Origin: an uncultured Pelagibacteraceae bacterium | Lineage (GTDB): Bacteria > Pseudomonadota > Alphaproteobacteria > Pelagibacterales > Pelagibacteraceae | DNA length: 64,000 bases | NCBI GenBank assembly: GCA_902625125.1 | Contig: CACOAB010000004.1 | Coordinates: 1-64,000 of the forward strand | Direction of reading: 5' to 3' | In this document: piece after piece, positions 6,030-8,447 of the stretch | How the letters are laid out: the number at the start of each line of letters is the position of its first letter | How positions within the stretch are numbered: the first letter of the stretch is position 1 | Position numbers and translations under genes: made by a program | Notes under the pieces: model-generated | Told to the model about the DNA's origin: nothing | Databases searched by the model: none | Seen by the model: the letters and a program-made list of their open reading frames with translations, nothing else

Positions 6030-6106
6030 GGCGAGGTAGCTCAGTTGGTTAGAGCACAGGACTCATAAGCCTGGGGTCGGCGGTTCGAATCCGCCCCTCG
6101 CTACCA
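6030..6106 (+). tRNA. tRNA-Met (CAT), elongator type
   Basis: The cloverleaf reads GGCGAGG acceptor, TA, D-arm GCTC/GAGC, anticodon loop CTCATAA, T-loop GTTCGAATC and an encoded CCA. The anticodon stem lacks the three G-C pairs of the initiator (GGG/CCC), so it is called elongator Met. It could be a tRNA-Ile2 whose C34 is changed to lysidine, but the body resembles elongator Met of other bacteria. Two weak pairs are seen: G1-T72 and an A31/G39 mismatch at the bottom of the anticodon stem. Confidence 0.9.
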
Positions 6107-6110
6107 AATA

Positions 6111-6641
6111 TCAAAGATATTTAATTTTTTTTCTAAACTCTCTTAAGGTCATTAATTTTTTATCTTTTTTTGAGACTTTAATTTTCTTTGATAAATTTAA
6201 CTTTAATTCAGGATCTTTATAAATGATGCCATTCTCATATTTTGGGGCATAATAATTGTCTAATTTATAATAAATTATATTTTCTTTATCTAAACTCAAG
6301 TACGCATGAGCGAAACCAGATGGTATAAAAAGACCTAAAGCATTATTCCTAGACAGAATTATTTTAAAAACTTTACCAAAAGTTTTAGATTTTTTTCTTA
6401 AATCTATAACAATATCAAGAATTCTACCTTTTAATACGTTTACAAATTTTGATTGTTTATTTCTAGTTTGAAAGTGAAATCCTCTAAATATATTTTGCTT
6501 AGAACTAGTACAGTACTCAAAAATAAATTTTTTCTTTAGAATTTTGTTATTGAAGGTTTCTCTTAAAACGCCCCTGTTATCATAATTATTTTTTTGTTTT
6601 ACTATTAGCAAATCTTTAAATTTTGTTTTTTTAACAATCAT
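6111..6641 (-). CDS. rfbC: dTDP-4-dehydrorhamnose 3,5-epimerase-like protein
   Basis: A cupin epimerase (176 aa) of the RmlC type, which converts dTDP-4-keto-6-deoxyglucose to the rhamno form for surface polysaccharide. Visible signs are RGVLRETFN near residue 24, the FRGFHFQT metal-free cupin motif with the catalytic His near residue 57, DLRKKSKTFGK and FIPSGFAHAYLSL. It starts with a 4-base ATGA overlap with the upstream rfbD-like gene, so both are in one transcript. The closeness of the stop to tRNA-Met is typical of the tight packing. The exact sugar made is not certain because the set of rfb genes here is incomplete. Confidence 0.8.
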   Translation of the reverse strand: MIVKKTKFKDLLIVKQKNNYDNRGVLRETFNNKILKKKFIFEYCTSSKQNIFRGFHFQTRNKQSKFVNVLKGRILDIVIDLRKKSKTFGKVFKIILSRNNALGLFIPSGFAHAYLSLDKENIIYYKLDNYYAPKYENGIIYKDPELKLNLSKKIKVSKKDKKLMTLREFRKKIKYL

Positions 6642-7330
6642 AGTCGTATCATTTTCTTTAATTTCTTTAAATTCATATCAATTCTTTTCGGAAATTCACC
6701 TTTTGAAAATTTTTTTTTTATGTTTTTATTATCTTTTTTTGCAAATTTATAAATTGATTGACTGGGCCCACCCACATTAACAACGCCTTTTTTATTAAGA
6801 ATTTTTGGTATTATTTTTGCCACGTCTTCTTGATAAATAAAATTCGATTTTACATTTGCATATGCTTTTTTATGTATGAATGGTTTTTCGGTCATACATA
6901 ATCTTATAACCAATGAATGTTTATACATTTGTACGGCACATTCTCCACCTAATTTAGACCATGCATAGTTATTCCATGGTTTTAGTGCATCTTCCTCTTT
7001 ATAATTACCTTTTGTACCTGGGTACACATAACTCGTGGACAAATAAATCATTTTAATTTTACGTTTAGAAGCTTCTTTCACTAAATTACAAGTACCAATG
7101 ATATTAAGATCGATACTTTTATCTATATTTTTATTGTGAGCACTCATTGGTCTAGATAATCCAGCTAAATGTAAAATATGAGTTGGTTTATATTTTTTTA
7201 AATTTTTAGAAATAGAAATAGTTGATAAAATATTTAATTGCTTTTTATTTGTAAAAATAAATCTATTATTAGATTTTTTGAGAATTCTACCAAACCTCCC
7301 GTCAGATCCTGTAATAAGAATTTTTTGCAT
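6638..7330 (-). CDS. Short RmlD-like NAD(P)-dependent sugar reductase/epimerase
   Basis: An extended short-chain dehydrogenase of 230 aa, shorter than typical RmlD (about 290). It begins MQKILITGSDGRFGRI, a variant of the GxxGxxG nucleotide motif, and carries STSYVYPG and the catalytic pair in NNYAWSKLGGE (YxxxK). It would reduce a nucleotide 4-keto sugar at the end of the dTDP-rhamnose-like route. The track starts at a TTG at 7333; the ATG at 7330 is preferred and overlaps the TGA of the rfbA relic by one base, so translation is probably coupled. The C-terminal substrate region is abbreviated, so the exact reaction is unsure. Confidence 0.7.
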   Translation of the reverse strand: MQKILITGSDGRFGRILKKSNNRFIFTNKKQLNILSTISISKNLKKYKPTHILHLAGLSRPMSAHNKNIDKSIDLNIIGTCNLVKEASKRKIKMIYLSTSYVYPGTKGNYKEEDALKPWNNYAWSKLGGECAVQMYKHSLVIRLCMTEKPFIHKKAYANVKSNFIYQEDVAKIIPKILNKKGVVNVGGPSQSIYKFAKKDNKNIKKKFSKGEFPKRIDMNLKKLKKMIRL

Positions 7331-7425
7331 CAAACGATCAGAAACTTTAAATGATCTTTATTTATCCTTATATTTTTATAAGTTATTTCATCCAAACAAC
7401 CAATATTGTAACTCTTTTTAATCAT
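7330..7425 (-). pseudogene. 31-codon C-terminal relic of glucose-1-phosphate thymidylyltransferase (rfbA)
   Basis: This short ORF is too small for the track. It starts on an ATG that overlaps the rfbB stop (ATGA) and ends on a TGA that overlaps the next ATG. It reads MIKKSYNIGCLDEITYKN, then IRINKDHLKFLIV. From memory, RfbA proteins end with a stretch of the form GLKVSCPEEIAFRKGFI, then a xxEQxxxLA segment. The relic aligns to this without gaps (C, E, I, K/R, I, L shared, with many conservative changes). The first ~250 codons of rfbA are absent. Either it is a deletion scar kept in frame by coupling, or a retained micropeptide. The alignment was made by eye. Confidence 0.6.
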
Positions 7426-8447
7426 ATTTTTAAACCCAACCTCTTTTCATAATTTTTTTTTGAAATACCTTTAAGGAAGTTTTTATTACTTAAATACCAA
7501 TGAATTGTGTCTTTTAAACCTTCCTCAAAATTTATTTTCGGTTTCCATTTTAATTGTTTGAAAATCTTTTTATTATTTAAAGAGTATCGGAAGTCGTGAC
7601 CAGGTCTATCTTTGACAAATTTTATTTTAGTTTTTGTACCAATATTTATTTTCATAGCCTTACAAATTTTGATTATCTTTTTTACTAAATCTATGTTCTT
7701 AAGATTTATCCCAGAACCAACATTGTAGCACTCACCATTTTTACCATTTAAATAAAGCCTGAATAAGGCTTCACAATGATCATTAACATGTATCCACTCC
7801 CTAGTATTTTTTCCTTTTGCATAAATAGGAAGTTCTTTATTATTAAATATATTTGAAATCATTTTTGGAATTAATTTTTCAGGAAATTGATAGGGGCCAT
7901 AATTATTGCAACAATTAGTTATTACTGCTTTTAAATTATAGGTTTTGATATAAGAATTTACCAAATGATTTGAACTTGCTTTAGATGCTGAATATGGGGA
8001 GCTCGGGTCGTATCTATGTTTTTCATCAGACTTAAATCCTTTTTTAATATCACCATAGACTTCGTCAGTAGAAACATGAATTAATTTTGGAGTAATTCCT
8101 TTTTTTTGCAAAAATCTAAGAGATTCTAACAAGCCAAACATTCCATTTATATTAGTATGAACAAAGTTACTTGGACCATCAATTGATCTATCCACGTGCG
8201 TTTCAGCTGCTAGATTAAAAATTACTTTTGGATTATATTTTTTAATTATTTTAGTAATCCTATTTTTATTTACAATATCAACTTTAATCAATCTATAATT
8301 TTTAGGGGTTCTGATAGTGCTCTTGTATGCGTTAGACGCGTAAGTTAATTTGTCTAAATTAATTACAAAATATTTTTTATTTATTAGATAATCTACTAAG
8401 TTACTTCCTATAAATCCGGATCCACCTGTAACGATGATTTTTTTCAT
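7422..8447 (-). CDS. rfbB: dTDP-glucose 4,6-dehydratase
   Basis: RmlB-type dehydratase (341 aa, full length) that makes dTDP-4-keto-6-deoxyglucose from dTDP-glucose. It shows IVTGGSGFIGSNLVDYL at the N-terminus (NAD motif), AAETHVDRSIDGP near residue 82, the active-site string VSTDEVYGD with the T, D, E triad near 125, and YSASKASSNHLV with YxxxK near 152. The end, NYEKRLGLK, is normal for the family. It heads a minus-strand operon running to rfbC. RfbA, which should supply dTDP-glucose, is represented locally only by a relic, so its substrate must come from an enzyme outside this window. Confidence 0.93.
   Translation of the reverse strand: MKKIIVTGGSGFIGSNLVDYLINKKYFVINLDKLTYASNAYKSTIRTPKNYRLIKVDIVNKNRITKIIKKYNPKVIFNLAAETHVDRSIDGPSNFVHTNINGMFGLLESLRFLQKKGITPKLIHVSTDEVYGDIKKGFKSDEKHRYDPSSPYSASKASSNHLVNSYIKTYNLKAVITNCCNNYGPYQFPEKLIPKMISNIFNNKELPIYAKGKNTREWIHVNDHCEALFRLYLNGKNGECYNVGSGINLKNIDLVKKIIKICKAMKINIGTKTKIKFVKDRPGHDFRYSLNNKKIFKQLKWKPKINFEEGLKDTIHWYLSNKNFLKGISKKNYEKRLGLKI

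Follow-up and report, generated by a model that had tools for sequence, protein, structure and literature searches.

Glucose-1-phosphate thymidylyltransferase (RfbA/RmlA; TIGR01207, PF00483; PDB 1h5r, 1iim, 1fxo), encoded by the first gene of a surface-sugar pathway, carries the catalytic nucleotidyltransferase motifs GGxGTRxxPxT, GDN, and EKP. In the window analyzed here, a stretch of 64,000 nucleotides taken as a whole, rfbB, an rfbD-like reductase gene, and rfbC are ordered on one strand as in the rml/rfb dTDP-L-rhamnose operons (rmlABCD), but the locus lacks rfbA and its rfbD-like product is a short SDR that falls far below the RmlD cut-off. Between rfbB and the rfbD-like gene lies a short ORF that shares with RfbA/RmlA the operon position, the start codons, a C-terminal block, and the terminal residues. 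Unlike a functional member of that family, it lacks 258 of the 289 codons, the whole catalytic nucleotidyltransferase domain included. In-gene deletions, relaxed protein constraint, and intact neighbors are features it has in common with bacterial pseudogenes formed by internal deletion in reduced genomes, from which it differs in that its frame is still open and the overlaps at either end are kept.

The source genome is a SAR11 genome of 748 kb in 29 contigs (73% complete). 'Ca. Pelagibacter ubique' HTCC1062 is described as lacking pseudogenes (Giovannoni et al. 2005, as cited in PMC4285135), and an intermediate of gene loss is therefore unusual in SAR11. Such intermediates seem to be rarely described in this group, and no papers on rfbA loss in SAR11 were found in an incomplete literature collection. 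Short or overlapping gene junctions are the norm in SAR11, with a median spacer of 3 nt according to PMC4285135.

A 31-codon ORF between rfbB and the rfbD-like gene

The gene order is rfbB, the short ORF, the rfbD-like gene, and rfbC, all on the minus strand, with the following features:

7422..8447 (-): rfbB (rmlB), dTDP-glucose 4,6-dehydratase, 341 aa, intact; TIGR01181 415 bits against a cut-off of 365
7330..7425 (-): very probable rfbA (rmlA) remnant, 31 codons; MIKK start, C-terminal block, and last four codons with stop; assigned by synteny with 89 relatives and by profile match
7411..7419 (-): site of deletion 1 (242 codons, 726 nt lost), inside AAAAAG; direct repeats AAAAAAGG, which encode KKG, are its probable endpoints
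7342..7354 (-): site of deletion 2 (16 codons, 48 nt lost); place ambiguous, codons 24/25 to 27/28
6638..7330 (-): rfbD-like short SDR, 230 aa; PF04321 E=4.8e-24; TIGR01214 well below its cut-off
6111..6641 (-): rfbC (rmlC), dTDP-4-dehydrorhamnose 3,5-epimerase type, 176 aa; PF00908 158 bits

With TIGR01221 the rfbC product scored 149.8 bits, slightly below the cut-off of 155.75. A tRNA-Met(cat) at 6030-6106 on the plus strand stops only a few nucleotides short of where rfbC ends on the opposite strand (6111), and it may mark the edge of the sugar locus.

The preliminary description had placed the ORF at 7330-7425 on the minus strand, with its start overlapping the rfbB stop and its own stop overlapping the next ATG, and both points were borne out. 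The ORF runs from an ATG at 7425 to a TGA at 7330-7332 and encodes MIKKSYNIGCLDEITYKNIRINKDHLKFLIV. Its ATG and the rfbB stop share ATGA (7422-7425), and its TGA overlaps the ATG of the rfbD-like gene in TGATG (7328-7332).

When the 31-aa product was used as query against Pfam, NCBIfam, and PDB, zero matches were returned, because it is too short and too diverged for general libraries, and it gives no full-length TIGR01207 match above the curated cut-off. After these searches had come up empty, a profile was built from the last ~45 columns of 85 SAR11 RfbA proteins. This C-terminal profile scored the ORF at 19.2 bits, a value equaled by none of 5000 shuffles, while the best unrelated segment among 1562 six-frame segments of the window reached 7.0 bits. 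The alignment with the end of RfbA that had been proposed by eye thus stands above chance. Its supposed gap-free character was not upheld, since the start codons, the block, and FLIV* align with gaps between them. The 31-aa ORF is a remnant and no member of the RfbA/RmlA family (TIGR01207).

Intact rfbA in relatives and the two internal deletions

A total of 169 genomes of the genus were searched, and 109 of them (the source genome included) have this rfbB. Comparison of the junction among these SAR11 genomes, which the preliminary description had called for, revealed a full-length rfbA (about 289 codons) exactly at this position, directly downstream of rfbB, in 89 of the 109. The ATG of the full gene usually overlaps the rfbB stop in these relatives, and rfbA of many of them begins ATGATTAAAAAAGG. 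The closest relative, Pelagibacterales bacterium SAG-MED41 (G055; hereafter the sister), is among the carriers. Its DNA is colinear with the window on both sides of rfbA at about 81-82% identity, and its RfbA matches E. coli RmlA (PDB 1h5r) over residues 2-286 (E about 8e-87). Between the two genomes, rfbB is 85% identical to its sister copy at the protein level with a dN/dS of about 0.09, and the rfbD-like gene is of equal length and 84% identical.

The comparison between remnant and sister rests on a codon alignment. Codons 1-4 of the remnant are the start of rfbA itself (MI[KR]K), the block SYNIGCLDEITYKNIRINKDHLK corresponds to residues 247-269 of the 289-residue sister RfbA (sister counterpart GLKIGCIEEVAFKNKWINKKQMK), and FLIV* corresponds to the final SLIV* after a gap of 16 codons. 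The sister stop codon TAA is TGA in the remnant, so that a stop is retained. The large deletion took out sister residues 5-246 and with them the catalytic domain. In place and homology the ORF is what an rfbA pseudogene should be, standing where relatives have the intact gene and resembling it above chance.

Relative to sister rfbA, both deletions are in frame. In the sister protein AAAAAAGG (KKG, residues 245-247) stands directly before the block and in the same phase. As reconstructed, the large deletion would have occurred between in-phase repeats of AAAAAAGG (KKG) at codons 3-5 and 245-247, by which the frame would have been kept, and the product of a deletion between these repeats would resemble the in-frame remnant seen here. 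Only the sister lineage has the KK of this motif, where RfbA proteins otherwise show a near-invariant RQ. The second deletion was seen in the alignment to the end of the rfbA gene of G055 (KKQMK[NAINFYGKCNYSKYLQ]SLIV*), and its junction could sit three codons earlier; the exact ends of the deletions are uncertain since the remnant is so short.

The sister RfbA (L087), of intact length, itself departs from near-invariant columns more often than any other of the 85 proteins (5 changes; next 3), for example K and K in place of the R and Q before GLK. The ratio of its RfbA to RfbB branch lengths is 1.38 against a median of 0.71, sixth in rank of 77. These values are no more than suggestive of a possible early relaxation of RfbA in SAG-MED41.

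Decay, selection, and artefact as explanations

We consider it very probable that this ORF, carried by a single genome, is what is left of a decaying rfbA (rmlA) gene, derived from an ancestral operon rfbB-rfbA-rfbD-rfbC with overlapping stop and start codons. Internal deletions in rfbA shortened the gene and left both outer overlaps in place. This was one of two readings offered by the preliminary description, which saw here gene loss in progress with both overlaps preserved, and it is sustained by the full rfbA at the syntenic position, by the colinearity with SAG-MED41, and by the failure to find a second rfbA in the 73%-complete genome. The other reading, that the ORF is under selection as a translated micropeptide or as a leader for coupling, handing ribosomes on from the stop of rfbB to the start of the rfbD-like gene, is not supported and appears improbable. 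It draws on the in-frame nature of both deletions, on the survival of start, open frame, and stop together with both overlaps, and on the replacement of TAA by TGA with stop function kept. When 15-20 neutral substitutions were simulated on the sequence left by the deletions, 8-13% of runs (about 0.08-0.13) kept start, frame, and stop together. Open-frame survival is thus mildly unexpected under neutral decay; it is no significant departure and no strong evidence for selection.

The rate of protein change speaks against selection on the peptide. At the retained positions, remnant and sister protein have an identity of 0.52, lower than in any of 23 pairs of intact RfbA proteins whose RfbB identities are 0.82-0.90 (mean 0.75, minimum 0.55). 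The remnant has a dN of 0.30 at a dS of 1.04, an uncertain estimate from 19 nonsynonymous differences in a short sequence, against a dN of 0.09-0.16 at a dS of about 1.0-1.2 in the flanking genes. Constraint is thus relaxed by a margin that is modest for so short a sequence, and a dN/dS below 1 is expected since some of the divergence arose before rfbA was lost. No unusual RNA fold was predicted at the junction (z 0.07). An RfbA-related peptide was found at none of 18 other junctions that lack rfbA; in other lineages without the gene, rfbB abuts or overlaps the rfbD-like gene with no peptide between them. Short or overlapping junctions being usual in SAR11, coupling needs no special explanation. 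Neutral decay is preferred over a micropeptide because of the faster protein change, the non-significant frame survival, the ordinary RNA fold, and the lack of a peptide elsewhere. The remnant would have no RmlA activity, since the whole catalytic domain is missing, and would at most carry ribosomes from rfbB to the rfbD-like gene.

Two further explanations concern the contig and the identity of the ORF. Collapse of a full rfbA during assembly is conceivable in a draft genome of 29 contigs, but we regard it as very unlikely: two separate deletions and an excess of amino-acid changes in the kept stretch exceed what a simple mis-join would give, the flanks are colinear with the sister, and junctions without rfbA recur in the 18 other genomes. 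Even less credible, to the point of being nearly excluded, is an unrelated conserved short gene between rfbB and the rfbD-like gene, the finding that would have overturned the preliminary description. ORFs of 31 codons are not rare in AT-rich DNA, and the ORF list of the window has many of that size, but this one combines an RfbA profile match with the exact syntenic position. In the junction census no relative had another short gene at this place, and none of the 18 junctions held a stretch matching the RfbA profile. The remnant is a case of ordinary gene decay by internal deletions, caught mid-way in a streamlined lineage. It records one stage in the loss of a gene, in a lineage noted for having almost no pseudogenes, and it illustrates that an overlapping-gene layout can outlive the loss of a gene.

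Absence of rfbA and retention of downstream enzymes in SAR11

A search of the source genome for another rfbA, likewise suggested by the preliminary description, found none in the 73% that is covered, with the RfbA of the sister included among the queries; a copy on the missing part is possible. Two PF00483 proteins are present, a protein of 400 aa that, as we read its sequence, looks like ManC, and an RfbF-type cytidylyltransferase-like protein of 241 aa. The RfbB from the source genome falls within a clade of 40, and the other 39 members all have rfbA.

In 18 other genomes rfbB is without an adjacent rfbA. Measured from the last aligned codon of RfbB, the rfbD-like gene starts at -37 to +12 nt in 12 of them (L074, L075, L077, L078, L079, L081, L083-L086, L180, and L183), where rfbB runs straight into the rfbD-like gene in several independent lineages. 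The remaining six (L073, L076, L080, L082, L168, and L177) are rearranged downstream of rfbB, with rfbC directly after it, an insertion of an SDR or of other ORFs, or genes in the opposite orientation. The best RfbB tree requires five independent changes to account for the missing rfbA (the source genome, a clade of 13, G116/G243, G068, and G062/G235), and well-supported branches alone force three.

No RmlA-like protein was found elsewhere in the 19 genomes that lack rfbA, the best PF00483 match being 125 bits against 205-226 bits for RmlA in eight control genomes that carry rfbA. A further search for RmlA that covered 15 of them also returned none. Incompleteness limits this claim for any single genome, and much less so for 19 together.

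For genome pairs in which rfbA is missing from both members, a lack probably inherited, dN/dS was 0.04-0.10 for rfbB, 0.08-0.11 for the rfbD-like gene, and 0.03-0.13 for rfbC. These three genes are under strong purifying selection without rfbA, and the pathway therefore appears to run without RmlA; judged by these ratios, the enzymes are still in use. The missing step is probably replaced or bypassed. Loss of rfbA would be tolerated if another nucleotidyltransferase with dTTP activity supplied the RfbB substrate, or if RfbB used another NDP-glucose. We regard as evenly balanced the broader proposal that SAR11 lost RmlA repeatedly and kept RmlB, the RmlD-like reductase, and RmlC, in a pathway that may lack a dedicated thymidylyltransferase and may be served by a promiscuous GalU- or RfbF-like nucleotidyltransferase or by a switch of RfbB to another NDP-glucose, with the source genome mid-way. 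This wider pattern is weightier than the remnant itself: the first dTDP-deoxysugar enzyme is lost repeatedly, and the downstream enzymes stay under selection. Whether abundant marine bacteria supply this pathway by a different enzyme or with a different nucleotide thereby becomes a testable question.

Three candidate signatures were considered. Convergent RfbB changes, as for a nucleotide switch, gave none common to all lineages without rfbA. A PF00483 protein specific to genomes without rfbA was rejected, as lengths and scores fell in the same range in both sets, RmlA itself aside. The CDP-glucose-type cytidylyltransferase (RfbF-like) was also rejected as a replacement that marks the loss, since it is widespread whether or not rfbA is present. 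In the source genome an RfbF-like glucose-1-phosphate cytidylyltransferase gene immediately precedes an SDR gene, a 441-aa protein is encoded upstream (L002:116-3143), and this region is a putative second sugar-nucleotide cluster.
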